Origin: Branchiostoma lanceolatum
Taxonomy: Eukaryota; Chordata; Leptocardii; Amphioxiformes; Branchiostomatidae
DNA length: 64,000 bases
NCBI RefSeq assembly: GCF_035083965.1
Contig: NC_089735.1
Span: 6,722,001 to 6,786,000 of the forward strand
Direction: 5' to 3'
The notes under the pieces: model-generated
What the model was told of the DNA's origin: nothing
Seen by the model: only the letters and a program-made list of their open reading frames with translations
Databases searched by the model: none
Shown here: piece after piece, positions 5,375 through 56,200 of the stretch
How the letters are laid out: every line of letters starts with the position of its first letter
Position numbering within the stretch: position 1 is the first letter of the stretch
Made by a program: the position numbers and the translations under genes

Positions 5375-5399
5375 CAAGGAGGTTTATCAAACCTCCTTG
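5375..5399. repeat. tiny hairpin of the CAAGGAGGTTT family with flanking 7 bp direct repeats
   Basis: Perfect 11 bp arms CAAGGAGGTTT / AAACCTCCTTG enclose a 3-base loop. Immediately outside on both sides stands GTAACAG, a perfect 7 bp direct repeat that looks like a target-site duplication. Three related hairpins occur at 10710, 14613 and 54579. Confidence 0.8.
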
Positions 5400-5707
5400 G
5401 TAACAGAGAATACTGGAGACTAAGCTTTGTGTACGCTCCAACTTAAGTGTATAAATATGTAACGTTATGTATGTTAGAGTCTCAAAAGGTGTTCTTTTGT
5501 CCTCTTTGTTCACAATGGCCTTCAAGTCCAAGTTGCCAGAAAACACTAGTCTAAGGACACCACAAGAGAGTTGCTTTCTCTCCCATACATTGGTATCATA
5601 CAGTATGCTTATAGGGCCAAATGTAAACATGATGAAATCATAACAGTCAAGTCAGAGACAGAAGTTGTAATATACATGTAGCCAGATGTATCTGTGGACC
5701 ATGAGAC

Positions 5708-5713
5708 TTTATT
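5708..5713 (-). terminator. candidate polyadenylation signal of the pyrophosphatase gene
   Basis: TTTATT on the plus strand reads AATAAA on the minus strand, about 240 bases beyond the stop codon at 5955. It is the first good AATAAA seen downstream in that direction, but no transcript end confirms it. Confidence 0.4.
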
Positions 5714-5954
5714 ACAGATGTACATCATAAATGTTAGTTATGTTATTGTGTAGCTCAAAGAGGTTATGACACTGGACAAACCAAATATGACTCAACAACA
5801 GCAGAGATGCAGACTTACATTGAGGACAGAGAGTGTGACAGTACAGTTTACTCATTTTTGACCAAAAATACTTTGATCTTAAAAAGCGTCAGCTTCAAAT
5901 CCGCACAAGATGATATCATGCATAGGAGATGTTCTTGTAGGTTCCTGACTTTGT

Positions 5955-8900: not shown

Positions 8901-11900
8901 AGTGAGCGGTCTGTTTGACAAATGTGTGTAATACTTTGTTTTATGAGTGCTGTGTGTGGGTAGCCTGAGTACCATCTTCCATAGTGACCTCTGGCTCAAT
9001 GCTTTTTGCTTGCTATCCGTGGTTTGTGGGTTGTGTGTGCGTAGTATTGTAAATCTTGAAATATTTGTGGTAATTTCAAGTTCGTAGTTTTTGCAGTCTA
9101 TTGCATAATAATTACACTCAACAATAGGTGCCGGGATTTCCAACTGTTACTATTGTTGTTTTCAACAGTGAACTCGAAGGTAACGTGACCTCTTTATTTT
9201 CACTGTGCTGTGAAGTCTTGGCCACAAGCAGTTAATGTATTATACTGAACGTGCGCAGTGTATAAATGATGTACATTGTGTACGTGTTGTAATTCTATCC
9301 ATCTAAAATCTTGAGTGTTCCTTGAAGTGAGTGTGCGTGAAGACAGCTTTCAAAAGAGCTACTACTAGTATTTCTAACTACCTCCTTACAGTACTGCATA
9401 TTCATGGCGCCAATACCATTTTGAGAGACACTTCACACGAAGTGTACCCACCTGGGGTAAGGCTCCGTAGTTCCAGATGTAGCCTTTATGTGGAAAGCAG
9501 TTAGCCACGTAACGCAGCTTACCCTTCTTAACATCTTGCTTGATGGGGTTCAGTTTTTCCTTGGTGGCAATCTGAAACGAAAAAATATGTTCATGGTAAG
9601 TTGCTTTTTGACTTTACAAAGTCCCACAGGAGACCCTTTGAACAAAAGTCAAGAGCTTCTTCTAAGAAAATGCATAAATTCATTTCTAAAAGGCCTGTCA
9701 GGACCAGCAGACTTTATGCTTTTGGTCTATATGCATCAAACTGTATTAGAGTTCATGCATACAAATGGTAACATAAACAGAATTTACTTGACAGTGTCGC
9801 TGATTCTCAATACATGTATTGCAAAATGATGACATAAAGAGATATAGCTATAAAGCATTTTTGAAATGCTAAGAAGAGTCATACCTCCATCTTGGCATTA
9901 GTCCATCTTGGCACCTCTACGACCATGTTGAAGGTCTTGTTCTGTAAGTTATGAAATGGAATGCATTCAATTGTTATAGTGAAAGTGATTTCAAACCAGT
10001 TTAGCTCACTGAAGAGCCAATCTTTCACCGGTCATGACAGAGAAGACATATGATATGTACAATATTTACAGGTTCATTGTTTGTACCTGGGAAATTCTCC
10101 TGGCTCTTTTCGACAAGTAAAACGAACAATGGACCTCAGCTTAAGGGATGCATTCCTTTCCATGGGTGTTGTCGCATGTTGGGTGAGCGACAGCACCCAG
10201 AATTCAAACTCCCAACCTCTTGGTCCAGAGGCAGGGTCACTGACCACTGGACGACGCATGCTACAGTTTGTTACAGCATATACTATCACAATCTAAGAAA
10301 AAAAACCTGCTACATAAATAGCACTTGGTCATGATGGTCATGACCACATTTAAATATAGCACAGTGCTACATCAAGTTCATCTAGTATTGTCTCTTAAAG
10401 GTCATAGGAAGAACAGTCTAGAAAAGCTTTGCCATCATGAGACATAACCTTGAATGAATGTCTTTTTTATAATTCATGAACCACATCAAGTCGAGATAAT
10501 ACCTGGGGGTTACTAAAAGCCTGTCAGCAGACCAGAGTTAGAAGCAAATGCTTTAAGCCTTCATTCTATAAGCATCACATTGTTAAGCACACTTAGAGTT
10601 AGAGTCAATGTCATTTTTCAAAGGCACAGGGCCATTAAATTCACATTGTCAACATAAGTTGCAGTGTATTACTATCAGATGGTCAAAATAAAGTTGGTAC
10701 TACATGTAGCAATGAGGTTTTATAAACCTCATTGGTACTAGCAATGCTATTTGCAGGCAAAAACTGAAATTGCAGATAAAACAATTTACTCCAAATGGCA
10801 AGAGCATCTCATCGACTTACCTCAGAATTTGCGAACAGCGGGATGTCGTGAAATGGGGAGACTGGCCCTTGTGGTCCCTCTGTGGACACAGAAAATCATG
10901 ATCTGACTTATAATATCCATCCTGTTCATACATCATGTTTAGCCAAACACTACAGCTCAAGTGATACTCTTTTTCATATTCTATTTTTAACGTATCTAAA
11001 GGTCCAGGACAGAAATAATAAGGTCATTCATATGATGGAATACAAGCAAATAGTAATATAACTATGACATGGTGTGGAGGTTAGCAATCCAGCTTCTTGA
11101 CCACAAGTTTGGGATTCCAATCCCATACTACTGGTAAGGGTATTTGTCTTTGTATTTATGTTACTATTATTTGTATTTACTATCATTTTGTATTAGGGTA
11201 GCAGTAGACTGGGTGCCAGACCACCGCGCTCCTGGCGCTAATCCTTCTGCCGGAGAAGCAACTCGCTCCGCCGCCACAGACAGTACATGGCCCACTAATT
11301 AGCTCTCGCGCGGGGCGCGATAGAAATCAGGGTTTGGCTGCCAAGCAATCCCGGGTGCCAACTCTATCCCTACTACTACTTCCCCGCCCAAAAGGGCTTA
11401 TCATCACATCGCGCGAAAGGTCTGGTATCCAGGCTAGGGTAGCAGGCCTTGTGAATCTGTATCAGTCCTTAGCAACCAGGAAAATTTGCAACCTCCTTCA
11501 AATCATTGGGGGACGAATCAAGTTCAGAGACCAACCAAACATTGGGACAATGAAATGCCTGCTCTACTATGTAACAGCTTATGAGGAAGTAACAATTGAG
11601 TCATGAGAACCACTCAGACCTGAAGTACACATATATAACGTTTTAACTCTGAAAATAACATGTGATTATCATCAGTTATGCTCACATGTCAAAGTATGTT
11701 ATGAAAAATGTTGTACTGGGGGTGGATCACATTACAAATTTCACAAAATTTCAATGCTCTCTAGTATACTGTAAATTACATTTAACACCACAATGAACTG
11801 AATCCCTTCCAAAAATAGCGCAGGCCAATTACAAATTACCTAAACTTGGCTTAAGACTGTTTTTTTCACAATTATCAATAGAATTATAATAGCCATTGCT

Positions 11901-12967: not shown

Positions 12968-13584
12968 GGACGCCACAGACCACGGCTAGGGGTGAAAGGT
13001 CGAGAGGGGAGATCCGTTTCACATCCGGGGGCCGCTCGCGTCGTCACGTAGGGAGATCCATTTCACATTCATAGGGGGGGCTGCATGCAACTTGTCCGTA
13101 TCGGCGGAGGCAAGCTATTTTGCTCTACCGTAATTCGTAGGGAAAGCTTATCTATCGCCGTAATATCAATGACTCTTAGCGAGATGAACACATTTTTGCG
13201 TGATTGACTTCCTGAATTCAGCGTGATGCGTAGCCGGTCCGATATGCAGCACCTTATGCAGCACCTCAATAATTCATTAAGAATTTTTCTTTAACTCATA
13301 GAAATTCTGTCTAATAAAATGACATTTACTTCAGATTTAGAAAACCAACGAATCTTCTTATTCTAAAACCCGAACCGCACTGTGTTTTATCGCCTCCTTG
13401 GTTTTGCCCAAACTACTAGTAGCTGCCTCAGGGGTCACGTGACACCACACGATAGCGAATAGTACGTAGAGTAGCACTTCTTAGGCGAGCAGGTATGAAT
13501 GGGAAATTTAACCTTATATTCACTTTCGGTGACTTTTATGATCCTCAGTTTGAAAAATGTGGTGACAGAGAAACTCATTTAAAA

Positions 13585-14217: not shown

Positions 14218-14285
14218 ATTTAAAACACCTATTTACACCGGTACCGTTCGCTGTAAACGGTCGCGGAAACCACTGTTTGTTTACA

Positions 14286-14367
14286 CCAAAAATAGTTACT
14301 CAAGCAACTGGATAAAATTTTGAAACAGTCAGAAATTTTATCCAGTTGCTTGAGTAACTATTTTTGG
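14286..14367. mobile_element. 82 bp foldback element, shortened relative of the one at 60062
   Basis: Arms beginning CCAAAAATAGTTACTCAAGC are answered by their complement ending at 14367. The words ACTCAAGCAACTGGATAAAA and TTGAAACAGTCAGA are shared with the 157 bp foldback at 60062-60218, which keeps an additional inner arm; this copy has lost that part. Confidence 0.85.
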
Positions 14368-14612
14368 CGTTAGGTCAGTAGAAAGACATCGCCTATGCAA
14401 GTCTAATGAGTGGAAACAAAATACGCAAAAAGCGTTTTCGCGACAAGGTGATACTTTAATTTCTGGTTAAGACATACGCACAGCAATAGAATTTAATGGA
14501 TGACATAAGGACGTGCATTGATTCCTCCCTAATTTCGAAAAACAAAAGTTCAGGAAACGTTGTTCCCCACCAGAGATAGTCAACCACGGAAAGGGCAATG
14601 TCTTGTTAGAAG

Positions 14613-14643
14613 CAAGGAGGTTATAGGCTATATAACCTCCTTG
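14613..14643. repeat. tiny hairpin of the CAAGGAGGTTA family with flanking 7 bp direct repeats
   Basis: Perfect 13 bp arms CAAGGAGGTTATA / TATAACCTCCTTG around a 5-base loop. TTAGAAG stands immediately on both sides, again a perfect 7 bp direct repeat. Confidence 0.8.
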
Positions 14644-16639
14644 TTAGAAGGAATGGCATTCAAGGAATATTACTAGTTTGTATAAATCTGATTCTGATTT
14701 TGGCTTAGACTTTTCTGCTACATGTATTGGCAAGATAGCTTCTCAAGTTCTAAAATCGCTGACTATGAATCTATTTCCTCTTTGGCTAGTCGCATTGCGT
14801 ACTGACATACATGTACGACTAGACTACGTGTATACATGTGCACGTACATGTGTTGCCGGCAGGCGTACATACGTCTGTGTTCCATTTCTACCATCGAGGT
14901 CACATAGCATAATTGTAAGTTCGTCTGGACATTTCCATAGATTCACACTCTAAATTCAATTGGCGTTTACTGCCTCCGGTTATGATTCAATCAATATGGA
15001 AAATGAAAACTACAAGTAATAATAATTATTTATGCTTCCAGCATGCTCAGACGAGCGTATCTTTGATATCATATATGTGACAACTACTATAATTATAAGT
15101 CAAATAATCAATTTGACAATAGCTTATGATCTACATGTTCAGCATTCTCAAACAGGTGCCCTATGACGACACTTCAACTTGACCTATATCTTAAATACTG
15201 CTGAATAAGGCCACAGCAAGTGAATGTTATGGATAACATCAGCGCGGGCATTGATTTTCGCCTAATTTTGAAATAAAAAACAATATATTTTTTACCCTTC
15301 GCCAATGGTCAACATACTGAAAATGGGACAGTATTTCGTAAACGCCTATCAGTTCTATCGCAAAAGATCGCAAAAACGTCATCGACACAAAAAGGCATTT
15401 GTACGGAAACCTTGTCTCTGCGTCCTTCCTCTACTCTTGATTTGCTATACAAAACCGGATCTATAATGACTTAATGTTGGCACCAGTGTTACTTAATCTT
15501 TTATTGAATACAAGAATAGAAGACTTCAATTTTTCTTCCATGCTTTGTGGTATTCAAGTTTTAAAATGTAGGCATCTTGTTTTTGTGGCCCACCTTGTTT
15601 TTTTTTTTCGCACACGCGCACTAAATTCCAGTCTGCAGAGGATGTCATCCATAAAATTTACATGCTGTGGCCTGAGTGGTTTTGTTTATATTTCTTTATC
15701 AATTGATTCATGAATAACTTAGATTTTTTTAAGTAGCTTTCTATTCAGCATTGCTTTTCAGAGAGGCCCATGAGTCATTTAACGCTAACATTATACATGT
15801 AGAACATGAAAGAAGTTATCATAAAACGTTACCTTACCTTAGCACCTTCGCTCCTCCCGTGCCTTTGAGACATATCGGACCGTCCTTTTCCACCTGTCGC
15901 GGTGTTGTGCGTCTACTCATATACACACCTTAACATAACATTGAATCTATATCACCATCTGAAATCGTTGCGCCTGCTCAATTCAGAAAGTCAACGTCTC
16001 GCGCCACTTCAGAATTCCCTTCATTCTTCATTGTCCAGAGCACGAATGCCGTCGTTGCTAATTTTGAAACATTCTGAGCCTTTTTTGAACGCGTCCGAAG
16101 TGTTGAATGTTTTTCAACGCGTCATATGAAGCCCTTTTTGCAATAATGAATTATTAGGCAAAAGTGAATCAGGACCTACCCATAAATTCCGATGCGGGCC
16201 AAATCCAAGCAGACAGCAGTTTTGATATGATTAGATCGTCCATGCACAGTAATCTTATCGGGTTTGAAAGCGGACTTCTTGGGCCCAAAACTACACATGT
16301 GCTTTTTTGTAGCATTTCGACCAAAAAATTGCAATCAGAGTCTTTTATAATTAGTGACATGCGTCTTCTGTGGTATCCGGGTCGTTGCGAGAACGTCCAG
16401 TGTCCATCAGCTCTCCTTCAGACAACACTGAATGTCCGTCTGTCTGACATTGAAGCTGTCCATCGGGCGACTTGCACAGGGCATGAGACGCACGAGCACT
16501 GTGCTAGCTTACATCGGCTTGTTGCGAAGCACTCTTGTACAGCTGGATTCCGATTGCGCGTGGAATCTCGTTTCCTTTGTGCATTCCATAAGGACTTTTC
16601 CCGTCATTTGTCGAATATTTTCCCGCTACGTCATCTTCA

Positions 16640-17640
16640 TATATGGCTGCATCTGTGGTCCTGGTGTTCATCACAGGTTACTGCATATGTCTTGAGCTGT
16701 GGCCCTGGGTCTTCATCATGGGTCATTGCATATGGCTAAATCTGTGGTCCTGGGTCTTCATCATAGGTTAAGCTGTGGCCCTGGGTCTTCATCATGGGTC
16801 ACTGCATGCGGCTGAAGCTGCGGTCCTGGGTCTTCATCATGGGTCACTGCATATGGCTGAAGCTGTGGCCCTGGGTCTTCATCATAGGTCACTGCATATG
16901 GCTTAAGCTGTGGCCCTGGGTCTTCATCATGGGTCACTGCATACGGCTGAAGCTGCGGTCCTGGGTCTTCATCATAGGTTACTGAATATGGCTTAAGCTG
17001 TGGCCCTGGGTCTTCATCATGGGTCACTGCATGCGGCTGAAGCTGCGGTCCTGGGTGTTCATCATAGGTTACGGCATATGGCTTAAGCTGTGGCCCTGGG
17101 TCTTCATCATGGGTCATTGCATATGGCTAAATCTGTGGTCCTGGGTCTTCATCATAGGTTAAGCTGTGGCCCTGGGTCTTCATCATGGGTCACTGCATGC
17201 GGCTGAAGCTGCGGTCCTGGGTCTTCATCATGGGTCACTGCATATGGCTGAAGCTGTGGCCCTGGGTCTTCATCATAGGTCACTGCATATGGCTTAAGCT
17301 GTGGCCCTGGGTCTTCATCGTGGGTCACTGCATATGGCTGAAGCTGTGGCCCTGGGTCTTCATCATAGGTCACTGCATATGGCTTAAGCTGTGGCCCTGG
17401 GTCTTCATCATGGGTCACTGCATACGGCTGAAGCTGCGGTCCTGGGTCTTCATCATAGGTTACTGAATATGGCTTAAGGTGTGGCCCTGGGTCTTCATCA
17501 TGGGTCACTGCATGCGGCTGAAGCTGCGGTCCTGGGTGTTCATCATAGGTTACGGCATATGGCTTAAGCTGTGGCCCTGGGTCCTCATCATAGGTCACTG
17601 CATATGGTTGAATATTTGACTTTGAATCATCGTCATAGGC
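16640..17640. repeat. 39 bp coding minisatellite, including a duplicated 3' end
   Basis: A 39-base unit (13 codons on the minus strand) is repeated about 25 times. The part from 17152 up is translated as the tail of the LRR gene. The part 16761-17151 is a copy, shifted by about 391 bases, of the last ten units including the same short deletion (CAGCTT joined directly to AACC) that causes the frame shift and TGA. The copies differ at very few sites, so the duplication is recent or is homogenised by unequal exchange. Confidence 0.85.
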
Positions 17641-20553
17641 CACTGCATATGGTTTTATATTGTCAGATCCAGGGTCTTCACCATAGGCCACTGCATATGG
17701 CTGAATGCCGGTAGTGTTGTCTTCTGGGATCTTGTCTCGAGCAGGGTTGGATCGTCCGCCTGTGGCTGAATTTTCGTCCGATCCTTGTAGTTCATCCGGG
17801 GAAGCATAGGCCACAGCGTACGGCTCGATGTTAGCGGCCCCTGTTTCAATGGATGTAACTTCTGCATTTCTTCCCGTTGGTGCGCCGTGATGTGGCAAAT
17901 CTGCGCCACGACGGAGTTTGAGGATGAAAATGACAGTCACTGTTACCAACATGAGGAGGAGGGGCACAACACCAGCGCTGACCATGGCAGTGACATAGGT
18001 GATGTTGACATCCTCGTTGATGAATGGATCTCCCAGAAGAGCAATGACACGGTCCATCTGTGTCGTATGCTCAGAGACTGGCATGACGTGCGGCATTTCT
18101 GTATAACCCTCAGTGAGGATGGTCTCGTTGTACGTGTGGGTGGAGAGGATTTGAAGACCTGTTGATGACATCCTCCTTGTAGTTGTCGCCAAAGATTTTT
18201 CGCTGAATGTTTTGGACTCGATCCCTTGTTGTGGCTTCTCCGTGTTGGTTTGGCAGAGATCTTTTCTCATGGCAGTTAGGTGAGTTCCAGAGAGCTTAGG
18301 AGGAGATGCACACAGCAGAGCGCCGGGTTCAGAAATGTGCGGCAGGTACGGTAGACTGCAGATGAACCATGTTAGACTTTTGTCACATCGCAGCTTGTTG
18401 TGTAGTATCTGAAGACCAAAGGGCTTGTTTCGACGCATACGCACGACATCGCTGTCGATCGTAGTGATGTGATTCATTTGCAGGTCTGCCTGCCACAAAG
18501 ATCTAGGCTGCAGAAGTGCGGTAACTGGTACGGCAGTTAGGTGGTTTTGAGACAACCGCAAGTGTATCAGCAGGGGTAGGCCACGGAATGCTTGTCGGGA
18601 TATGACGGAAATCGCGTTCTTCTCGAGGAGCAAAACAGTTAGTTTCTCAAGCCCGAGGAAAGTATCCGGTTCTAAGGGAAGATAAAGAAGGGTTCATGAC
18701 TGATGAGAGATGTTGCTTCTTATGTAGGTGGTGTGAATCTTATACAATTAATGATACAGGGAAACTGACGTACAGTGGAAGTTTTGGATACTACTAGTAT
18801 GAAGGAGAGTTGATTTGAAGCCATAAATATATGAAGCCAAAATTGGAGGCTGCATGGGGAGTGCTCAAACTTTGACTTCTTTCTTATGGTTATCCGGTTC
18901 CCTCCAGACCATACAGATACAGTAGATTCCGCTTAACTGCACACCCCATTTGCCAGCGTATATGTGCAATTATCCGGCTGGTGCAATTATGCGAAATTGC
19001 CCAGCTGGACCGGTAGTACACTGTATCATACAGGAGGTGAATAGTTTATAAACCTCGATGTGCTGCATGAACTTGTAAGTACGCATTTATATGTTAGAAA
19101 GCTTTCGTTATACAGGTACAGTGCGGTAAGACCGTAGATTCCACCTCTTGTTATCGCCACGTTTATGTATTAAAACAGTAAATTTCAAATTCTCAGGAAA
19201 GACATCTCAGGACACAGTGAGTGAAATCAGTATGTGAATATAGCGCTGCCGCGAACCCAAAACCGCCGACAACACCCAATGTCATCCTTTTAACGCGAAA
19301 TCAAATCCCCGCGAATTTAAATACATTCACAGTAATAAGACAGTGTACAGGCAGAGACCAATCTTTTTGGAGTACAGCAGTCTGCCAAAACGCAATACCG
19401 CCTTTGGCAGGCGTGCGTCTCTTAATGGTGACGACACGCCCCGTGACCCGCCCAGGACCTCCAATACGATCGCTATCAATGTGATTGTCAATGGAGACCA
19501 CCTTCCTTTGTAAGTGAAAACAATTTTAGACATATTGGCGGTATTGTGCCTATACGTAGGCACTTATCGGCTCATTTGTACCGCGTTTGCCGATTTTTAG
19601 CGCACCTTTTTAGCTAACTTGTCGAGGATTTTTGAAACATTTTGGTGCAGTTATCCGGAATTGGTGACAATGCGCCGTGCAGATATGCGGAGTCACTAAC
19701 AATGCAGTGAATGGGAACCGGTTTGGGATTTTGGGATTCGGTGCAGTTAGATGGAATGTGCATTTATCCGAGGTGCAATTAAGTGGCTTCTACTGTACTT
19801 ACCACGACGTCGACATTTCATTTTATGTTGAATACAAACAACAAATAAAAAAATGTAATATCAATAACTTTTGCCATGTCTTGATACCCCGTGTACAGAA
19901 ACGAGCACTCAAAATCCTTTGCTATGATTTGTACTTTAAAATTCCCTTCTTGCTATAACATTACCCGTTAGCTATTAAGGAATCTTTGAAAAATCATTGT
20001 GGCCTAACCATGATTTGGCGAAGTTTACTCTAATAGTATTTGGCTAAAAGGCATTGATTTCATAATTACTGAGATGTACTAGGCATTTATAGTAGGTTAT
20101 AAACACTGCAAAATGGAACGTCTTTCTGATCTTACCTAGGCTGGAGATGCGGTTGTCAACAAGGTAGAGGTTAATTAACAATGGTAGGCCTCGGAAAGTA
20201 CCTGGCTGTATTGCGGAAACGTTCGACTTTCGGATACTCAAATGCTCAAGACGCACGATTCGAAGGTTCTGAAAAGATTGTTCACGGAGCGTCGATGAAG
20301 AGAGATGCTCGATTATGACTGATTTAGTGTCTCTTGTAAAGTCGGTTGGTATAGAGTCAAGACATATAGGAAATACATAGGTTCCTCCATGTCCAACCCA
20401 GCTACACGGAGAACTCTCGCCATTTGGATCGGGGCAGCGACAAGAAGACACCACTTTACTGAAACAGTTGTCTGGGCATTGGGCAGCTCCGAGTACGAAA
20501 AGTAGCCGACAGGAGACAAGAAGGAACAAAAACCGCGCCTTCCTTCGCTCCAT
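17152..20553 (-). CDS. LRR type-I transmembrane protein with tandem tyrosine-rich cytoplasmic repeats
   Basis: Two exons, 20553-20136 and 18671-17152, join in phase to 645 residues. The start has a basic-hydrophobic signal peptide (residues 1-24), then a cysteine-rich cap (CPDNCFSK), several leucine-rich repeats (residues about 80-230; FRGLPLLINLYLVDNRISSL and a sister copy in exon 2), a C-terminal LRR cap with four Cys (about 231-279), a Thr/Ser-rich stalk, one transmembrane helix (about 370-392) followed by LRRG as a stop-transfer, and a cytoplasmic tail. The tail holds 13 copies of a unit like PYAVTYDEDPGPQ with Tyr replaced by His in several copies. Extracellular ligand binding is inferred from the LRR architecture; the paired Tyr in acidic context could be phosphorylated SH2 docking sites, but they do not fit the ITIM consensus. 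No orthologue can be named. Confidence 0.85.
18920..19795. mobile_element. pogo/Tigger-like (Tc1-mariner) non-autonomous element in LRR intron 1
   Basis: CAGTAGATTCCGCTTAACTG at the left is answered by CAATTAAGTGGCTTCTACTG at the right, imperfect terminal repeats of about 25 bases, with the dinucleotide TA directly outside both ends. CAGTAG termini with a TA target are usual for pogo-type elements. Subterminal words such as GTGCAATTATCCGG and GCAGTTATCCGG recur inside both halves. No DDE-transposase frame is seen. Confidence 0.75.
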
Positions 20554-20875
20554 CTCGATTTACACTATGCTTCTGTGAATTTCATCTTGCGTCTACATGT
20601 CATGATGAGATGCATGAAATTTGACTCCCTGTTTCATTTCCCATCGGGGATACATTGATGCATGTGATGTGATAAATAAGTCTGTTGACCTGTTCTATAT
20701 AAATATATCTACTAATATCAACAAGACATGTGTTTTCGAACTTTGACACACTGTCTGATTTGTATGGTAATTTGCACTGGAATTGACGTATCTTGCGTGG
20801 GAGTGCACGTGCCTCCTCGTTACGTCTGTGAAACGGAGGTATTGTTATTTTCGGTGCCGTGACGTCTGTCTCTTT

Positions 20876-20893
20876 TTCTCTCTCTCTCTCTCT
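20876..20893. repeat. CT microsatellite
   Basis: About nine CT dinucleotides, followed by GTGTTTG. It lies upstream of the LRR gene. Confidence 0.85.
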
Positions 20894-21336
20894 GTGTTTG
20901 TGGACAGCATAACTTGAGAAGCTGTAGATGGATCCTTATGATATTTTTATAGGTGTGTAGTGGTCGTCAAAACGAAGGTTAGGTTCAATAATTGGCCCAC
21001 CAGCGGCTTTCTACGGTACTGCAGCCAAACCGGTTTTGATATTTCGAGTTCTGGACATGCTGTGGTCGTAGTTTTTGAGTGGCAGATAGCTCTTGTTGTT
21101 TGTGTTGGGAATGGATTTTAGATTTCATACAATTTGCCCTGTCTTAATACTATCAACCGGCCATTTTTCGCAATAGTAGTAGGAACGTAGATGTTTCTGG
21201 AGCAGTGCCTTCCTTTGAACCATCTTGTGGTAATCCAAACAGTGAACCTTATACTTGTGTTGCAATGGTGAATCTAACGAAGGACAATCTTCTGGTGAAA
21301 AAAATTTGGGAAATTTTGGGACTAGATACATGTACT

Positions 21337-21448
21337 TATTCTCCAAGCAGAGGCTTCGACCTAGAGGGGTAGTTTTGTCCGGGATTTTTTACGTAAAAAA
21401 TCCCGGACAAAACTACCCCTCTCGATCGAAACCTCTGCTTGGAGAATA
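21337..21448. mobile_element. 112 bp loopless foldback element with 9 bp flanking repeat
   Basis: Arms of 56 bases meet at a central ACGT with no loop; only about three positions mismatch. The outer ends are TATTCTCC and GGAGAATA. ACATGTACT stands directly outside both ends (21328-21336 and 21449-21457). A 9 bp target duplication is typical of Mutator-like elements, but ACATGTAC is itself a common word in this window, so part of the match could be fortuitous. Confidence 0.85.
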
Positions 21449-22564
21449 ACATGTACTAGACTAAATACTAGGCCATCCATACGCTTGCTCTTTGCATACT
21501 TTTTCATCATCTGTGTTTTGTTTTATCCTAGAATTTTCAGCGAGGCTTTGGCAGCTTCGGCAAAAATATACAAAATTTTCCGTCACAACACAGTTGAATT
21601 TCGTATGATACATCCATGACATGGAACTGCAGAGGCAGTATTGTCAAATTCTTCCAAGGTGACTAACTGAAGAACGGAACAACGGATTTCCATCATATTT
21701 AGTGTGTAGGTAGCTTAGACAGAGATGTACATAATGAAGTGCAAAGTATGCAAATTGGAGCCTTATTTATATGATTCAATGAGGAAAATCTACGTTTGCA
21801 GTGTTTTCCATTATAGGACTTAAATACATGTAAGATGTGTAGTTTATTGAGGTTGGAACATTAAAAGATATCAATTATAATTAATGCAAAAGTGCCATAA
21901 TTCTTCCAAGTGGTAAACAATTGGACTGTTAACATTGTGACCTGTGTAAGCCAGTTAAAGGTGTATATGGCCAGGCATAGATTATGTGGAAGTCATTTGC
22001 ATAATCAAGATATTTCATGGAGATATGAGGTCTCGGAACTCTTGTTGTGTCCTGTTCATAGCTGTCGAAAAAATAGCATGCAGCTGACTTTCATGCTAGA
22101 GGTTAGAATACATTAGTCATTATCGTCATTCATCCACGATTAGATGCTGCTTTAGATATTACTTGGTCTCACGTTAACAACTATGGTCACGTCTATGACA
22201 TGGACATATCGATTTAACAAGCAGGGGGTCTACATTCGTCGCACAATATTCTTGCACGATTTTCAGCGAGGCTGCGACAGGATCGAGCGTCGACAATGAT
22301 TTACGACATTTTTTCCGTCAGAGAAAAAGACAGCTGAGTTTTGTAGGACGCATCCACAACTGTCCCAATCTACTATCGTCAACCTGTCATACGACGAGTG
22401 CGACATGCGCAGTAGTCGTATCCGAAGGGCTGTGCCACCAGTTGGGACACGAGTGCGCTGTTGACGGTCGGGGACCAGTGAGCAATGTTGCTTGATGTCA
22501 ATGCATATTATTCACATACATGTTGACAGTACAGACTCAGCTATGCCGCATAAGACGTAATCAA

Positions 22565-26030: not shown

Positions 26031-29000
26031 ACATATTACCGCATGTGGATTGCAGGCGCATGTCAAACGCTGTAATGATGACTTCGACCTGTCGTTCTCA
26101 TTCAGTTCATGGAAGCACACCCTTCCTTTTACAGCCGGCACGCCTCTCTTGTTTCCTTCCTCCAACAGTCCATGATCTATTCCTGAGTAAAACAAAAGAG
26201 GACATGAAATATCATTGTTGATTGATTGCTTGACAGACAGTTTACGAAGGAAAATTAAGTGATTAGCGAGGGACAAACCAACGATTTGCTTTCGAGTAAT
26301 TTTGATAACAAATGAGTTGATTAGAGTCCCGTTGTTGCCAGTGCCTACCCTACGTGTGCCCCAGGAAATCCTGGTAAGCCCAGCTGGTTCAACAGTCTCC
26401 CATCCCCACAACAGCTGCCGCTCTCCGAGTCAATGACTCGGGCTGGGAGTAAACATGTTTGTTTCGGTGGCAGAGCAGCAGAAACTTGTACCCTTGCCGT
26501 GGCTGGAATCTTTTAAGGCAATGATATACTAGTCTAGAAGTGTGTCGTTCTAGGTCATAAACAAGTCGGGCAAAGTAGACTGCTAACTAAGGGAGTATGA
26601 TACACGTAAACAGCAGAAATCTGTGCGTTTTAGAAATTAGAATCTAAAAAAGTTTTAGAAATAGGCAAAATAAAGTAACTAAAGGAGGTAGACAAACGTA
26701 AACAAAACTGATTTGTATACAAGACAAGAATCACTGCATACAGAAATATACCAAACTAGAAGTATACTATTCTTAGCCATTTACAAGCTATAAGCATTCA
26801 CAAAGCAAAGCTAAGGGATGTTCAACAGCAAAAAAGACTGACCAAAGGAGGAAAATACACATGTACAGTACATGTAAACGACATTCAATGATTCATGCAA
26901 CGTTACAGTCCTGCATGTAACTTCCATGTAAATGTATAGAATTCACAGATGAACACTGTGAGACATTTCGGCAACTCCCCAACTCCTACCCCGCACCGTT
27001 TGCAGTCAGTAAGCCGTGAAACATGTGGCAGTTTTCGAGCCGCCGGTGTATGAATGACGCATGTCACGTCCTACGTGAATAAACAACTCCGGGAACAGGT
27101 GGTCCTGGGATAATGGCGGGCGGATTAAGCCGGGGGAGGGTCTCAGAGATTCATCTCCAAACGAAAGTACCCTCATTTAGTAGGGAGAGATTTTCTTTCG
27201 TTCATTTTTTCACGAAACTTACATAGATAGAATTGAAGGAAAGAGTGATACTGAAACGTAAACATACCTATCTACACTGTATCTATTCTGTGTTTCATAC
27301 TTTTGACTTCGTTTGTATGTGTTTCCTAATTTAAGGATTTTGACTGTGAAAACATGAACATTCACTTTGAATTTCATCACATCAAGACGTTTTGCACTCG
27401 ATCGTTCGTATGGTACCATTACCCTAACATACCAAAGCGCTTGAAAATATTTAGCTACTTTGTCTTTGCACTACTAGTAACGTTGCATAGCTGAGTAACA
27501 ACGCAATCATTAAGTGACTGGGCATTCCAAGATGGGGACTTTTATTTCCTTCAGCTGTTATATTTTCTCTAATTCGAATTCTAATCCTGTATATTTTCTC
27601 CGTATCCCCTCTTTCATGATCGTTCATTTCCTCAGTTTTGTTACCCTGGTATCCAAACCTATTATAGCTCCCGAGTTTCCTCTCCGCAAATTATACGATC
27701 GAGGCTACCATATCAACACACCAGGCAGAAGCCCAGGGAAACATCTGTGCACTCAGTCGGTGACAGGAAACATCCTGACTTGCAAAACGAAGTCGGGGAT
27801 CGGGGAATTTTTGACGAGCCTGAGGCGAACCTTTGACTTCCCCCGTGACCCAACGGTTGGGTAGTCTAGAGGCCTGGTACCGCACTTGTTATCATAGAGG
27901 CGGCTTGGTTTATGGACCTATGCCATCGTGGAGAGTTGTTAGAGACACTAAGAAAATTATCATCATTACATCGTCATTGTCAAAATTGAACCATGTTTAT
28001 CTTCAGACTTATCCTGATTTTTTTTCTGTCACATCGGCCACATGGCAAGGTAAGTCTATGGTGTCTAATGTGGAAATGCTGCCCCTAATTTCTTTCTACC
28101 TTGCCTTCATGTCCAAACGAATACAAGATAGCTATGAAAGATGAAAGTTTGCAGTGGTGCTGAAGACTCAATACAGCACTCCCACCAGGACCCGCGCACT
28201 CCACGGCTGTTACTCCTTCTTACAAGTTCCTACAAGTCTGTACTAATTTACTGTACTACTCAGGAGGAAGCTGTGCCCACCCAGTCTTATTGAAACTGCA
28301 CACTGGAGGTTATCTCACCACCACCTCCGGCAACATGTCAACACCAAGTGTGTGGCACTTCCTCACTGATACATACTAGTACCTACCAGCCCCTATAGCG
28401 ACTGGTTGGGAAGGGGTGGGGGTATTTAGTTGGGCGGTGCATGCAATTTTACCTCATTCATGAGTTCATTGCAGATTATGGCATTTCCCTCCTTTAAAAT
28501 TTTCTAACAATGGTTCCACTTTCCCTTTGACTCATTAAATGCACACGTGCAGAAAAGTAGTGTGATGCATACTTTAGTATTCCGTCTTGAACTCTATAAG
28601 CTCCTTAATTAAATACAAGACAGAGCTATAATGTCAATATATTGCTTCGACCGTATCAAGAAACCATACGGTGCGATGTCCCTACCTTGCTGTCTTCTTG
28701 AGCAGTTTCTTGAATAAATACTACTGATATTGAGTAACGAACGTCCAACCACATGTCCCCTCATGGTTAACCCTGACATGTGCCCCCAGAGACCTTACCC
28801 AAGGCCACCGACCCCACAGAACGCCGCCCTGGTTTCACCCATCGCAACAGATGAGCCTTTCAAGCAGTCGACAGAGATTAGGAGGTCATGAGGAGAAATT
28901 CTTCAGCACGGTACAGTAAATACCGAGTCGGCGGGGCAGGCGCCAGTGTTGTGGGGTGTTGATGCGCTAGTGCGATGACAGATGATCCACACTTTAATAT

Positions 29001-33475: not shown

Positions 33476-34008
33476 ATGGCCATTGTGATTCAGGAGCAGC
33501 AAAATGATGAAGGAAAAACGTCTCGGAGCTATTAAGCGAAAAAAAAAATCAAAGAAAAGCTTGTCGCAAAATCAGGTTTCTTCAGTTATTTGAATTTCAA
33601 CTGCTAGTATCATCGTCTTGAAAGTGACGGATAGTGTGAGGATCCGCGATTCCTACGGTCCAAGTATGCTTTATTCAACAGCGACATCAAGCGGCGAAGG
33701 AAAAAACTGCAGCAAGCGTAGTACAGCGCATAACGAATGACTACAATGAAAGGCCACTTGTTACATCTGTCAGGCATCACAGATACAAGAGAAGTAGAAA
33801 AGGAACGAGAACCAAACATCCTGACATTGCTGAAGCTAACCACACAAGATGCCGCACCAAATCAAGCTGCTAGGGGCCACAATCAAATTAAACTTTTCAG
33901 TTTTTTTCTTTTTGGCAAGTCTTTTTGGCAAGTCCTTCCAATAAGGTTAAAACCTCCATGGTCCTTCCCACACAACAAAAATAAAAATTCACCAACAATT
34001 TCTTGATT

Positions 34009-34318: not shown

Positions 34319-34374
34319 ACAGACCGAAAACAAACATAATTCACCCCTCCGATGAAGAACATGACACAAGACTC

Positions 34375-40400: not shown

Positions 40401-43400
40401 ACACAGACATGTGTTGAAGTAATCCATTCTAACTAATGCTATGGTCACATTTCAAACTGGGCCTGGAATGCGGGAATCAAAACTAAAAGTGTCAAGAAAT
40501 ATACACAAATTATGCTAATGATAATTTTTTACCGTTTTGTTGTCTTCTATACCATACTTTTTGTTCTAGCAAACTGCCCCACCAGGTAAAGGTTTGGAAA
40601 TGTGACCATAGCATAAGCTTGAGCAACTATCTATTTTGCTTCCTGCATGACATGTACAAAATGTACATGCAAATTTTGTCATCCCAATATCTTTCTTGTC
40701 TTTCCAGACTGCAGTGACTTGCCTGATCAAACTTGTAATTGTGCATGTGTGTGTAAAAAGTCATTTCAGACTAGAGAGCTAGAGCTACATTTGTCTTCTA
40801 AAACCTTGTAATGGAGCCCTTGTCTGTTAGTACTCACGCTCTTGCTGTGCCAGCTCCAGTTGTCTCCTGAGCTTGGACACCTCGTTGCGCAGGTACTGTA
40901 CGTGCATGGTCAGGTTCTGTGCAGTGTCGCCCTCCGTCAGTTCCCGTGGGGAGGGGGGCGCAGACACCGGCTGGTCCAGCCTCTCCTGAAGCAGCCTGGT
41001 GAATTTGTCACATCAAAATATTCAACTGTTATATTTTGTTTTCAAGATTCATAATATTCACAAAATGTATTCTTTTAGCTTGGCAAATCGTAAGTAGTTG
41101 GAAATTGTTTCTGTAACCTGCAATTTTGCATGTTGCAGGTGGGTATTATATGGTCTGAAGCCTTGTTTATTCATAAGAAGGTCAAATTGGTCTGCAGGCC
41201 ACTTTTCATTGAGGTGATGAGGGAAGAGGTGCACTATGATCAGGATTTGATTTACTTATTTGGCTGTAAAAATGTCAAGATTTCACCCTATCCATCCAAA
41301 AATTAGGACCTCACGACAGGAAATTGATGAAAATGCATTTTTTAGACTTAAAATGACAGATTTAACAACGAAAAATTAATACATTGACTCTCAAACAATG
41401 AGAGGGATGGAGAAAAATTCAAAGCTGGAGACAACCTTGACATTGATACTGACCTTTTCTCTGCCTCCAGTCTGTCCATGCGTTTCCACAGCCGGTTGAC
41501 CAGGGCCTCCTGCTCCTGCTCCAGGGTGTTCTCTAGCTCCACCTTCTCACGACGCAGCTGGGAAGGGCAAAGGTCTTGTTACTGACTTTTTCTTTCTTTC
41601 CCCATTAACTTTTCTACATTGAGCAAGAGCATGTCTTCAAAGCTCTGTTCTGTTAATCATCCTTTTATTAACAACATTTCTTCAAATATACAATTAAAAA
41701 CTAAACAAGTGAACAACTCGACATGGACAACCTGGCCATTGTGACCACTCTTTAGTGGTCACTCAGATAATTTTCCCCACTGACACAAGCATTAAGAATC
41801 CTGTCTATGGTGACGACCTGTCCACATAGACCAGATTTTATTGGTCCCTTTCTTGGGCAGTTTTGACTGTAAAAGAAGCTGTCACCTTCAACAGTCACAG
41901 TCAACACATATTCCCCCTTTATGTTTACATCGACAATCCTATTCCTTGTGTTGATTGCATGCAGCAAAGTTGTTCCTGGGTCTAACCTGTTCCAAGTTGT
42001 TTTGCTTCTGGTGGATCTCGTTCTCGAGCTTCTCGATCTTCCTCATGAGTTTGTTAACCTGGAACTCCTGCTCCTGCTCCAGGGTCTGCTCCAGTTGGAC
42101 CTTCTCCTCTCGCAGCTAAACATAAACATAAACAACAAATATAAACAATCTTACTTGTGAGTTTGTTAACCTGGAACTCCTGCTCCTGGGTCTGCTCCAG
42201 TTGGACCTTCTCCTCTCGCAGCTAAACATAAACATAAACAACAAATATACACAATCTTCCTCATGAGTTTGTTAACCTGGAACTCCTGCTCCTGCTCCAG
42301 GGTCTGCTCCAGTTGGACCTTCTCCTCACGCAGCTAAACATAAACAAAAACAACAAATATAAACAATCTTACTCATGAGTTTGTTAACCTGGAACTCCTG
42401 CTCCTGCTCCAGGGTCTGCTCCAGTTGGACCTTCTCCTCTCGCAGCTAAACATAAACAAAAACAACAAATATAAACAATCTTACTCATGAGTTTGTTAAC
42501 CTGGAACTCCTGCTCCTGCTCCAGGGTCTGCTCCAGTTGGACCTTCTCCTCACAGCTGAACATAAACATAAACAAAAACAAAACAGGGCTCAAAATACAA
42601 AGTGCATGATTTATGCAATGCACTTTTGTGCATCCAAAATTGGAGCTGTGTACCTACATGTTGATCATGGGGTGCACTGGTGAATCAGTCCTAGATTTTT
42701 GTGTAAGGTTGTACATTGTATACTGCTCTACAGCATACAATGTCATGTATTCTTGACATTCAAGTGAAAGAGAAGAAAAGCTTTGTAGTATTACTTATTT
42801 AGCATTTGAAGTTCACAAAAACATTTGGCTTCATTAATTATTTCATGTTGTGCATCCAAAGTTTTTCTGTGCACCTATATTTTTAGGTTAGATTCACCTA
42901 TTTCCAAAAATGAATTTTTAACATATAAACACAAACAATGCTCCTCAAGAGTTGTTGATCTAGAACTCCTGCTCAAGTGAAGTTTTAATGGAGGTTTAGT
43001 AAGAAGTAAAAAGATTTTCTAAAAAAAATAGAACAGGATTGACAATTGTCAAACCTATAACTAGATTTTCTAAATTCACACAGTGTCTGCCCACATTCAA
43101 AGAGAACCGGTGTTCTAACTTGTGTGACACTTCCAGCCCACAGGAAGAGAAGAATCATGCTTGCTGTCCCAACACTTCCTGCCCTGGAGACAACCTACAT
43201 CCTCTACATTCCACAGTCACACACAGGAAAACCACCAATCCCACAAACCAGCTCTGGAGGAAATCTCACAGCTGGGAAATCAACCACAAGACTATGTCAA
43301 TCAACTCTTAACATACGTTGGCTTTGACTTTGTATAACACAACTGCAGAGAAAAATGGGACTGTTGCACTTGTTGGCTATTGGAACTGTTTCTGAATATT

Positions 43401-46400: not shown

Positions 46401-49400
46401 AATCTAAGTGTATGCTTTGTTGAAAACCTTATTAGTTATACCAGTTGTTTTGAAGGAGTGAGACTTTTATTTCAGAAATTAGATAAACATCTATATATGC
46501 ACGAATGTCATCAGTAAAATTAAGTATGAATGGCCTTATCCAGAACATGACCTGAGGGCTCAGTCTTCTCAAGGTCACTAACCCACAGGTCAAGCTCCCA
46601 GTGGGATACAGAAGATCTAGAGTTGGACCTGGGCATACAAAATCACTCAGGTTCATTAAGGAGGTTACATACTTGGGTTCATGTAGAGACTAAAAATGTC
46701 AAACCTCTAGATCTAGGTTCATTATGTTATATATTATATGTACATTTATCAAGTCAGAGAAAGTGCTTGCAAAGATTAGTATTATGAGTACAGTACTGCT
46801 TAAAAACAAAAAGTAGAGACACCAACATATCAAATTAGACTTAGAGTTAAGCAACATGCAAATTCAGAGGCAACTGAAATCTCACAAACTATAAGTTTGG
46901 TTTTCTTAAAATCTATGTTGTTCTTATCGCAAGATCTAACAGCTTGGAAATGGTATATCTATTATTGACCAAAATGTATTGATTTTCATGTGAATTATTG
47001 ATATTTTGACACTCTAGCCTACAAAATTTGATTTTCCTTTGGAGAAAACAATTTCAAACTCAAACTTTAGTCAAAGCAATACAATATCTGGACCATGCCT
47101 GGAAATCTATTTTTCACCTTCAATCTCAAATAATGTTAGCATTTTTTACACTGTAGACATAGTACACTACACTTTCAATTTCAAATTCTTTGCAGTTACT
47201 TTTCAAATGATATACGACATATACTGTATACGTAGTTACGACTTAGTATTGAGGTACATGTACATTCAAGTAATAGCACAGATGGCTGAATCGCCTACTG
47301 TACATGTATATTATGAATCTACAACTACATGTACATGACTCAGAACCCAGACAGAGAACGCTAATGTTCTCCCCTAATTATAATTTCAGATGACAAATAT
47401 GACAAATAAAGGGGCTTTCTAATCCCAACATAGATAAATCAGGGGATTTCACCCTCCCCACAGTAAATTACACAAAACCCAGGTTTATATCTCGCCATCT
47501 GCTAGTGTCCAGACATCCCAATAACTGCCACCGGAAAGGAAGGGAAATGAAAGCATCTAATCCTGCAAGAGACCAATAACTCAGGGTATAAGGCTTTGGG
47601 GCATACTACGATGTAGCTCACGATTTCTATCACTTGACGCTGATGTATTTTAGCTGACAAACCCATTTTATTGAATTGGGAAGTACACATCACTGAAGAG
47701 GGTGTGTTATGGGGGGGAATATGATATTGCTGTGCACATTGCAATAGAGGATTCAAGAAATTTTTTGTAAGCCTGCCAAAAATCCACAGTGAAAGACATC
47801 CCTGAGTCAGCAGTTCTGTTTTGAAACACTAGTATCCTTCTCTTTACTATCATTTCTGCCCTGCTACTTCTTTATTTAACGCTGTGCGGCTGTTCTGGAA
47901 TGTTGTTCCTCTTATCAAAGCCACAGTTGAACTCTTGATTATTTTAACAGTTTGTTTAACAAAGGACTGAGGCATGGGTGAGGTAAACATCTATTTCTGG
48001 CCATGACTCAACTCTGTTTTGGGAGGGTCTCAGTGATCAGCTGTTTGTGGGTGGTACAGAGCAGGGCTAATGAATGTAGAACCATGTTGGTATAGTAATC
48101 CATACAGTTGTAGTGTCTCCTGTATGGTATATTACATGACTACAGCAATTTTTATCTATTTATTTAGCTAATATAACAGCAATACACATTAGGTCCTCAT
48201 GTTTATACTTAAAGCAATTGTTTCTAAAGATTGGCATGAAAAGCTACACAAAACCAGAAGTACAAATTACAACAAGAAAACATTTCTCCATCACAACACA
48301 TACACATGTCCATGATGAAAAATGCTATTGACTTTATATAAAGGTTATGACTCAATAAAACATGACAGATGCCACCCACTGCAAGGTCAAGTTGAAATAT
48401 TCCAACCGCCCTTTACTGGCTGAGCTGTAATACAATAACCAATGTCACAATTTGGGAGGGGAGGGGCAGCTTCAAATGTTCTGGAGTAAATGACTCTCTG
48501 ATTTGATAAAATGTGAGGATCAAGTGGACATATTTCAGACAAGCATATATGAGCATGTCTAAATATGTAAAGACTATAAAGTGACATAGAAAATTGGACA
48601 AACAGAGATTTAGATATGGCAACATCAAATGCCAGGGTCCTTGGCGGATGTGACCATAAAAATTATGCATGAAGGAGACAAATTGGTTTAATCAGCCATG
48701 ATCATCCAGGCATGGGAATTTCCTAATTCTGCTGATTTTCCAGATGCGATGGCGTCACCTGTCTGTGACAGATAGATGGAATGGGCTCGGCGGACACCTT
48801 GGAAGGAACCTAATGACTCAAGGAGGAGACAAGAATTCTCCAAGGGGCAGCAAGGAATTGATTATGTCTCTTTTATAATTCAAGCAGGTCCTGCTTTCCT
48901 TCCCTCCATGTTTGAATCAAGACACCAATGCTTCTTAAGTTAAGGGCGGAGACAATTTCATATTCGATAACTGCCATGTTGTTGACATTCCCTCGATATG
49001 ACAAGGGATTATGAGTGCAAACGGCAGCTCTGTAAGCTTCTCTGGGACAAATTGTTATCATTTTGTGTACACCAATCTTAAAATTAAATCTGCCAGCTAC
49101 TTTCTGCCAGTTTTGGATTTGAGCATTCACAATCGCTCTAACATGTAACCCACACTGCTGTGGTTTTGACAGTCATTTCTATTTAATACAAGATGCACTG
49201 ATATTGTATTGGTTAATGCAACTATGAGATGTTTATAATTTTTTAGCCCCTTAACAAACAACAAGACTTGAAAAAATCAGATTGTGATTTAAGACACATC
49301 TTACAAATCTGCCAACCATCTTCCCTCGGGACATTCTTAAAGCTAGCAACTCCCACAACACCACAAAACCAAATCAAGATAATTTGCAGGGTGGCCTTTA

Positions 49401-53000: not shown

Positions 53001-53261
53001 ATGAATGTCAAAAACATTGTGAAGTGATCTATCTAACGACAAGCATGCTATCAATGCATTGATATTTAACTTATATTCACGGGAAAAACAACACTTTGCA
53101 GTGCACAAAGTAGTCCAAGGCTGCAAATTATGTTACCTACTAACAATTTTTTCCTGATATAAATTACTCTAAAATGTGAACTTGTCCGTGTTTTCTGGTG
53201 CAAATAATCATTTGCAGTGCTTTAAACATAATGTTTTAAGTGTCATGTTTTTGGTTTGTAG
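50090..53261. promoter_or_regulatory. divergent intergenic region between CCDC6 and the VWA gene
   Basis: The two genes are transcribed away from each other, so both promoters must lie here. GTAACGTTAC or TAACGTTA occurs at 50593, 50791, 51394, 51421, 52136 and 52251. The VWA ATG follows directly on an acceptor (GTTTGTAG/ATG), so its transcript needs an untranslated first exon somewhere in this region, possibly around 51.6-51.9 kb, where sequence composition is richer in CpG. No TATA box was assigned. The short hairpin ACCTGTCCGAATGGACAGGT lies at about 51579. Confidence 0.45.
50147..50166. promoter_or_regulatory. palindrome with paired E-boxes upstream of CCDC6 ATG
   Basis: CTCAGGTGACTTCACCTGAG has 9 bp arms separated by CT and contains CAGGTG and CACCTG, both E-box type words, 58 bases upstream of the CCDC6 start codon. 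It may be in the promoter or 5' UTR. Function is inferred only from motif form. Confidence 0.4.
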
Positions 53262-56200
53262 ATGCCGCTAGACACCGTGTTGTGTCTGGACACGTCCGGG
53301 TCCATGTACGGTGCGGGGATGGACTCCTTGCGGAGGGCGGTGCGCCAGTTCCTGCAAGGAGTACAGGAGACCGCAAGTGAGACCGGCCTTCGCGAGAACG
53401 TCGCAGTGGTGGAGTTTGGGAGCAGAGTCAGGATCGTCCAGTCTTTGACCAACCAGTATTGGCGAGTGCAAGGTGCCGTCGGTACGTTTCAAGTGTTCGT
53501 TTCTCTGTCTGTCAGTCTGTTTGTTTCTTTTTAGATTCAGCCTTTCGCTTAAGCTTTAGAAATAGGCACACAACACATTACAATATCACATTGTGATATA
53601 TCTTTTATCATAACAGGTGTGATGAATGTGCACGAGAGTGACCACCCTAGGTTTTTTTTACTATCCTGACATTTGAGTAAAGTGACAGAAATTCGAAAAA
53701 GTCCGTTTCGCTGAAAGCAATAAAGGCTATCAAAGATCAGAAAATCAGTCTTCCCATTACTGTGGATAGGAGGACGACTATATATAGCAACGCTAATTTT
53801 TGTTTTTAAAGACGTCGCCTTTTCTCCACAGACGGTCTGCAGGCAAACGGCGGAACCCCCATGTTCGAGGGTCTGATGGAGGCTTTGAAGGAAATATTGC
53901 AAAATGGTGAGTTTACTTGGAATTTTGTTTCTTTTATCTTCTGCAGTACGCCTAGAATGTCAATTTACTATGTCAATGTTGTTTCATTTAGATACAAACT
54001 TTGCCAAGTGAGCCTGAATCGCGAGTGCCACACTCCAAATCTGTTTATGTATATCATATTTTGAAGTTGAACGCAACCTTGACCTTCTTATTGCGGTCAT
54101 TGATAGGAGGGGTCATCTCCCTGGCCGGAGGAAGAATCAAGATGACCCCACGGGTCATCCTCATGACGGACGGGAAACCAACGGTGAGCTGTTCATTAAT
54201 AAGAAGTTTATTGCTTGCAAGTTCATGCCCGTGGGCTAATTGCAAATACATGGTAAAGACATAGGGAAAAACATACATGCGTCAGTAAACTGTGTCTGAC
54301 TTTGTTGTAACAATAGGCTACTGGTACTGAATACAATTGTTGGCTATATCTAGACTAGCTGGCCATGGGTTTGACTTCTTTTTTGGAGGCAGTGGAAGAC
54401 GAAAAGTCCCACTTTTTCTAGTATTTGTGGGTTTTGTGCTTTCAAGAGAAAGGTAGCTTTTTGTTCATCCGTGAATGTGTAAAAGTAGGGGTATTTCGTG
54501 GTAACTTGTTTAAATAATTCGGTTCTTTTGTCACTGTTAAATAGACAGCTTGGATATAAAAATGTGTTTCATTAATACCAAGGAGGTTTAATCTCATTAA
54601 ACCTCCTTGCTAATATCAATTATTTTGTATTATAGACTAGTGTTGACATTGTCTTCTTTGGAGCTTTCAAGCCACGATCTTCATGAGTGAGTTCAATTTG
54701 TATAGTTAACAGACCTCGCTCCAACAAAACGCACAAGTCTCTTCGAGTTACCAGCTGTCCATTCAAACCTTCATGAAGTTCAAATGACCAATCACTGAAG
54801 ATACGTGACCTCACAGACGCGTGACGTCGCTGACTGATAACGGCTGCATGTGCGATTACAGTAACCAGCCTTTGAGGAAACTTTTTGTTACGATGGAATA
54901 AAGCTGATTATACCACCATTCCACTAGGGCGGCGGCCTCGCTGCGACCGCGCTACGACCGAGTCACGGCCAGTGTTCTCGTGAACTTTCACTACTCGTCC
55001 CACCACAGAGAATTTTTCAGCGTACTACCAGGTTCTCCTCTGATTCACACCACTACTATTGTACAACTACCAGCATCTAAGTCATTCTACAGTAACAGCT
55101 TTTTTCCACGAACTGCAAAACTCTGGAATTCCCTCCCAGCCCACTGCTTTCCCCCCGAATACAACTTACAAACCTTCAAAAGAAACACACACCGCTGTCT
55201 CTCAACTATGCCACATTAGTTCAATTAGTTCAAAGCCGAGAAGTGGCCTCTTACGGCCTTGTATTGAGCGAGATCGTTAGAAAAAAAAATTCATAGCTAG
55301 AATGCTCAACAAATGTCATGACTAAAAAAAAGCGAATCATTTTACGATTGTGTGTCTTGTTATCTTTGCATGCGTCTTGGTTTTCATGTTGTAAGATATT
55401 CCTATCATGAAGTTATACAAATTCAATTTATGTCGCAGTGAGGTGGCAGCGCAATCGCCGTCCACTGGAAGGGGGGGCATTACTTTGTTAACGGACACAA
55501 CAGGTGACATTTCATACTGATGAAGAAGTTTAATGTTTCATTTAGAACGCAGAGAAGGTGATAGTGGCGGCTGCGAGTTTCAGTCCGAAGGGTTACAGTC
55601 AAGTTGGTCTGCCCTACCCCATCCCCATCGCCTGTGTGGGGTGCGGCTCGGAGGTTGACGTGGTCAGTAAGCTATTCATGATGTCTATGCTAAACTATCA
55701 TATCCTGTAGAATTTAATGGTCCTTAATGGGACAACTGGACTTTTGCACAGTAGGGAGTGATCAGACGTGAACCATTACGAATTATGAAATGGTTGTGCG
55801 TTTTTTGTTTGTTCACATTTTGTATCTTGTATCGTGACATAAAATCATCCTTCGCGTAGATGTGCAAATGTGTATGTAAGTGTCATGTCTTTGTCTACAT
55901 ATTCCATGCAGAAATTAAGATTTGCTTTGATATACATACATTATGATTTGCATTAATATACATACATACGACACTTTAATCGGATGGTCCTGTAGGGTTT
56001 GTTAGCCGTAATCGCCAAGATCACGAACGGGATGTTCGCCATTGGTGACGTCAGCGAACTGTCCAGCTTCTTTCGCAAACAGGTAACACATAAACAACCC
56101 AGGCTATTACACGTTTTCCGTTCTGATTTTTATCATCTTCAAAACGTACGTTTTTGGTGCGGATGCAATGGTGTTTGTTGATAAAAGAGCAAATAAACCT

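Follow-up and report, generated by a model that had tools for sequence, protein, structure and literature searches.

Hairpins with 7-bp flanking duplications in Branchiostoma lanceolatum: candidate excision scars of a cut-and-paste transposon

A 64,000-nt stretch of the Branchiostoma lanceolatum genome (GCF_035083965.1, NC_089735.1 positions 6,722,001-6,786,000; hereafter the window) carries short hairpins bounded by 7-bp direct repeats. Are such hairpins mobile units in their own right, or are they the fused ends of a larger transposon? An earlier note had described four of them, with perfect arms, and offered both readings. All four are present where it placed them, as are the exact 7-bp flanks GTAACAG (at 5375) and TTAGAAG (at 14613); its partly matching flank pair is TTAATAC/CTAATAT at 54579 (5/7). 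The observation is real and larger than was reported there: three related objects, at 33939-33960, 46657-46675 and 58585-58595, had been missed, and the total in the window is seven.

The copies and their ends

The family objects run CAAGGAGGTT...AACCTCCTTG, from left end to right end. The seven copies are listed below; none is assigned a strand.

Copy 1, 5368..5406, unstranded: 25-bp hairpin at 5375-5399; exact 7-bp repeat GTAACAG on both sides
Copy 2, 10710..10734, unstranded: 25-bp hairpin with arms CAATGAGGTTT; flanks match at 3/7 in register
Copy 3, 14606..14650, unstranded: 31-bp hairpin at 14613-14643; exact 7-bp repeats TTAGAAG
Copy 4 (new), 33932..33967, unstranded: 22-bp imperfect hairpin at 33939-33960; exact 7-bp repeats GTCCTTC
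Copy 5 (new), 46650..46682, unstranded: 19-bp remnant at 46657-46675; exact 7-bp repeats GGTTCAT
Copy 6, 54572..54616, unstranded: 31-bp hairpin at 54579-54609; flanks TTAATAC / CTAATAT, 5/7 match
Copy 7 (new), 58578..58602, unstranded: 11-bp remnant CAAGGAGGTTG at 58585-58595; exact 7-bp repeats GTATACG

In coordinate order the copies measure 25, 25, 31, 22, 19, 31 and 11 bp, and their 7-bp flanks match in register at 7, 3, 7, 7, 7, 5 and 7 positions of 7. Exact repeats are thus found at five of the seven copies, and the sixth copy matches at 5/7 bases. In all copies other than copy 2 the flank match peaks at k = 7; at k = 4-6 and 8-11 no more than 5 bases match (5 of 9, 10 or 11). The register of the TTAGAAG repeat at copy 3 allows a one-base slide. 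Copy 2 has GTACTAG on its right and GTACTA+CATGTA+G on its left; if a 6-bp insertion in the left repeat is assumed, GTACTAG would stand on both sides. Copy 5 was found in a scan requiring exact repeats and has about 10-15 nt of the left end and 4-5 nt of the right. Copy 7 is a single arm in the list of arm matches; its repeats came from the flank scans.

The outer ~10 nt (CAAGGAGGTT) are common to all seven copies, and divergence grows toward the centre. In the perfect hairpins the sequence after CAAGGAGGTT reads T-ATC-A, T-TAT-A (the CAATGAGGTT copy), ATA-GGCTA-TAT or TAAT-CTC-ATTA; in the 22-bp copy just AA separates the two ends (33939-33960). The 19-bp and 11-bp copies are lopsided, with one end much more shortened than the other. 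Copy 2 (10710) has an identical change in its left and right arms. Six of the seven copies start with CA (46657 starts with TA) and all seven finish with TG. Folded as single-stranded DNA together with their flanks, the four perfect hairpins greatly exceed dinucleotide-preserving shuffles in stability (z scores of -6.9 to -10.4); for each of the four, none of 200 shuffles is as good.

Statistics and controls

When one mismatch at most is allowed, the CAAGGAGGTTT arm occurs 14 times in the window, where 1.59 occurrences are expected; none of 100 shuffles reaches 14. Six of these matches are single sites outside the four hairpins. Hairpins were also collected with flanks ignored (arms matching at 8/10 or better each, span 20-45 bp), which gave five: the four perfect hairpins and 33939-33960. 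Exact 7-bp flanks occur in three of these five, compared with a rate of 0.00045 for exact 7-bp flanks at similar spacings elsewhere in the window (binomial P ~9e-10). This 3/5 is the unselected figure; the 5/7 given above is partly selected, because 46657 and 58585 were found via their repeats.

The reverse scan took exact 7-bp direct repeats first and scored the ends afterwards. It covered 1480 exact-repeat segments with lengths of 10-60 bp, five of which reach 15/20 or better against the family ends; the five best are 5375, 14613, 33939, 46657 and 58585; in the end score of the 11-bp copy, overlapping bases were counted for both ends. At the same score, 300 permuted motifs gave a mean of 0.017 and a maximum of 4, and five was reached by none. 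Five was reached by three of the 300 at 13/20 and by one at 14/20. An earlier permuted-motif null (maximum 3 at score 15) let in near-copies of the motif; the 300-motif null is cleaner.

Look-alike hairpins from viral and prokaryotic contigs served as an outside control: 3 in viral_contigs, with centres of at most 20 bp, and 30 in genome_contigs, with centres of at most 30 bp. None of these 33, which include a few near-duplicates (e.g. L001 and L003), has in-register flanks matching at more than 3/7; with the edges allowed to move outward as far as 5 bases, flanks matched at 5/7 at best. Several of the 30 look-alikes in genome_contigs precede runs of T and may be terminators.

A maximal-exact-repeat scan for hairpins of any sequence (k = 4-10) found one, the 5375 copy; its maximality rule excludes the 14613 copy. 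A looser any-sequence scan found three at k = 7, two of them unrelated to the family. The copies are very likely real insertion-derived objects with 7-bp target duplications.

Search for a parent element and other repeats in the window

The window yielded no parent transposon in which both ends lie between 7-bp repeats. At 10-60 bp, nothing beyond the copies combined the two family ends with an exact 7-bp repeat. A window scan to 400 bp for one end at 8/11 or better and an exact 7-bp repeat gave no longer element, and a scan to 9 kb for both ends and a repeat of at least 6/7 gave none. A generic inverted-repeat scan with 6-8 bp direct repeats returned no element carrying the family ends. Lone CAAGGAGGTT-like ends (1414, 5756, 7001, 23383, 57760 and others) have no good partner in the window; the end at 7001 sits inside a 29-bp tandem array. 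Domain scans of 16 of the window's 18 stop-to-stop frames of at least 130 aa gave no transposase. The gene content suggests animal DNA: open frames of the window match a helix-loop-helix domain, leucine-rich repeats and DUF2046.

Several candidates were set aside. A sixth inward arm pair, at 56736-56783 (48 bp, 8/10 in each arm), has flanks matching at 2/7 by eye and was dropped as noise; it exceeds the 45-bp span limit of the unselected set. The segments 26876-26928 (53 bp, repeats 6/7, ends 14/20) and 18132-18179 (48 bp, repeats 6/7, ends 13/20) were taken as chance. At 57760 a good left end has a 6-bp repeat 266 bp off, but the right end scores 3/11. Four long pairs at 5-12 kb, from a search up to 20 kb, have repeats of 5-6/7 and are chance-like; one joins two known copies.

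The window also contains other repeats. A 114-bp palindrome at 21336-21449 (57-nt arms 95% complementary, no loop) is flanked by the exact 7-bp direct repeat CATGTAC; this palindromic insertion is different from the hairpin family and longer, with the same duplication length. Two palindromes, at 60062-60218 and 14283-14370, have AATARTTACTCAAGCAACTGGATAAAATTT in common; one of them has perfect arms of 75 nt around a 7-nt loop, and in the other the arms (38 nt, 97%) enclose a 12-nt loop. No exact match to a 30-base stretch of this palindrome repeat occurs in viral_contigs. In a 2.6-kb region at ~1674-4290, whose edges carry AATCGCGATT motifs, the two halves are mirror images in several nested spots; its single frame of at least 130 aa has no Pfam match. 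A 16-bp segment, TGACTTCCTGAATTCA, at 13205-13220 is flanked by exact 7-bp repeats GCGTGAT, which may be due to chance.

Tandem arrays are present at three further places. Part of the 45-bp array at 16641-17705 falls within a minus-strand frame in which a leucine-rich repeat occurs along with a repeated segment resembling PYAVT(Y/H)DEDPGPQLQ. The 112-bp array at 42036-42577 has about five copies, 92% matching. The 51-bp array at 57359-57542, with unit CAGCAC then CAAGGAGAG, resembles the left end of the family, probably by coincidence.

Origin of the copies

The seven objects are held, with moderate confidence, to be excision footprints of a cut-and-paste transposon with ends CAAGGAGGTT and a 7-bp duplication, most likely of the P superfamily (Galileo/1360 type); family and mechanism are both inferred. 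The transposon would have inserted with duplication of the 7 bp now found at the flanks. Its excision would have followed, by a cut with a long stagger like the 17 nt published for the Drosophila P transposase, and the first ~17 nt of each end would have stayed on the flanks as 3' overhangs. Through end joining, in which trimming varied and a few bases of filler or microhomology took part, these overhangs would give the anatomy that the copies have: target duplication, left end, right end, target duplication, with a hairpin of at most ~34 bp and a variable centre. The 19-bp and 11-bp copies would come from asymmetric trimming.

For such scars to form, 10-15 nt of each end must stay in place when the transposase cuts. 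The P transposase of Drosophila cuts in a staggered way, severing the 5' strands 17 nt inside the element (PMC7776569). Donor flanks would consequently keep those 17 nt, and scars of up to ~34 bp would be expected. The copies measure 11-31 bp against 34 bp for full joining (n = 7; exact-repeat scans to 60 bp; weaker candidates of 48 and 53 bp); the two segments at 26876-26928 and 18132-18179, if real, would break the 34-bp bound. According to PMC3878927, overhang sequence remains between the target duplications when excision is followed by end joining; the same paper gives overhangs of 2-3 nt for Tc1/mariner, none for piggyBac, and hairpins on the flanks for hAT.

Several features point to the P superfamily. 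The 7-bp duplications of the copies agree with its 7- or 8-bp target duplication, and the copies have terminal CA...TG inverted repeats; to our knowledge, CA...TG termini are general across the superfamily. 1360 has 7-bp duplications (modal) at GTTNAAC (PMC3276498), Galileo has mostly 7-bp duplications at GTANTAC (PMC4168063, PMC2775673), and Pdre2 of zebrafish has termini CATACC...GGTATG (PMC10983969). Against the assignment, the duplications of the P element (PMC3276498) and of Pdre2 (PMC10983969) are 8 bp long, not 7.

On the five exact duplications, GTANTAC ranks first and GTTNAAC second among 64 palindromic 7-mers with a free centre; the sampled P values are 0.0011 and 0.0048, uncorrected, and GTANTAC was taken from the papers after the flanks had been noticed and was then scored. 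In a seven-site version, for which one flank each of copies 2 and 6 was picked by the analyst, GTANTAC is again first of 64 and matches at 26 of the 42 positions, where 11.1 would be expected (none of 200000 samples). The GT..AC core is not unique to P, because the target of hobo (hAT) has the same edges (GTNCGNAC, 8 bp; PMC3276498). The outer flanking motif of the P group and Galileo (ANA..TNT or AAN..NTT) is absent, and this speaks against the assignment: 2 were observed against 5.85 expected, with P 0.99 for both. This motif was not taken as defining because PMC3276498 calls it a P-group tendency.

Galileo and 1360/Hoppel resemble the family in their 7-bp duplications and in the GTANTAC / GTTNAAC cores that score best of 64 on the five repeats, a likeness of duplications and target sites. 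Unlike those elements, the family has shown no THAP/DDE transposase and no long TIRs here, and the outer motif is missing. Drosophila P-element footprints share with the copies a target duplication, remnants of transposon ends, the lack of a body and a short variable centre; laboratory P-element scars retain terminal-repeat bases at both sides. In contrast to those footprints, the duplication here is 7 bp rather than 8, several native genomic copies occur in another animal, and no parent transposon is seen. A literature search, with subscription papers and repeat databases largely outside its reach, found neither the CAAGGAGGTT family nor natural genome-scale P-type scars.

It is possible, though doubtful, that the copies are ultra-short MITEs, consisting of two fused terminal repeats, mobilised in trans and copied as units of 25-31 bp. 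Like MITEs, including the P-MITEs of Anopheles, they combine an inverted repeat with a target duplication and have no coding capacity; four perfect hairpins with 7-bp target duplications, several copies within 64 kb and the paired change in both arms at 10710 are in keeping with this. However, the copies of one master should share a centre, and here centres and lengths vary beyond the outer ~10 nt; the shared internal sequence by which a master copy is recognised is absent. According to PMC1562414, P elements of D. melanogaster need ends of at least 138 and 216 bp; in Anopheles P-MITEs a central region is present and more of the P-element termini is retained, less than 100 bp at each end, which is still far longer than in the copies. 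Ends that are 3 bp apart would also leave little space for a paired-end complex.

The earlier note had proposed that the hairpins are among the smallest mobile units and were copied as a unit. In one form of this idea, the 25-31 bp hairpins are mobile units for which fold-back copying remakes perfect palindromes at every jump and a transposase acting in trans inserts them with a 7-bp duplication. This is unlikely. If it were true, the hairpins would be among the smallest mobile elements in an animal. The target duplications are real; of the two readings in the earlier note, fused ends of a larger transposon are favoured over a tiny mobile unit because ends are shared while centres and lengths vary.

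Larger family elements may instead have shrunk to their ends by internal deletion after insertion, through abortive gap repair or palindrome-mediated slippage and without transposase-dependent excision. The ends are kept and the middle is gone in all seven copies, with exact target repeats in five, and, judging from its sequence, copy 7 could have arisen from a hairpin by TT-to-TT slippage. Longer intermediates are lacking, however, over the ranges searched in the window: beyond the copies, there is no two-ended segment with an exact 7-bp repeat at 10-60 bp (or with one end at 8/11 or better to 400 bp) and none with both ends and a repeat of at least 6/7 to 9 kb; to 20 kb there are only the four chance-like pairs at 5-6/7. 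Internal deletion is considered distinctly improbable. Chance or unrelated hairpins (from template switching in replication, or functional RNA hairpins) with accidental flank repeats can be practically dismissed: non-family palindromes are also present in the window and permuted motifs sometimes reach five at looser scores, but none of 300 does so at 15/20, none of the 33 look-alikes has such in-register flanks, and the search for an RNA family gave no Rfam match at gathering thresholds.

Excision scars are preferred because a single 25-bp master should yield copies with a shared centre; independent joinings should not, and should trim unevenly. Two features place demands on excision scars. 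The same change in both arms of copy 2 calls for a parent with that variant at its two ends, unless one arm was later corrected from the other. If 64 kb contain seven scars and no parent, there must have been many excision cycles without homologous repair, or the parent is extinct.

If the copies are excision scars, each marks the past departure of a transposon that is now gone, and seven in 64 kb would suggest that scars can outnumber resident copies; this density is biased upwards and unsafe to extrapolate, because it was the hairpins that drew attention to the window. A genome could then be read, with no need of a laboratory assay, for the number of jumps, the outcome of end joining and the stagger length of the transposase. 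Excision scars of this kind would also be a sign that P-type transposition with 7-bp duplications occurs beyond the flies.
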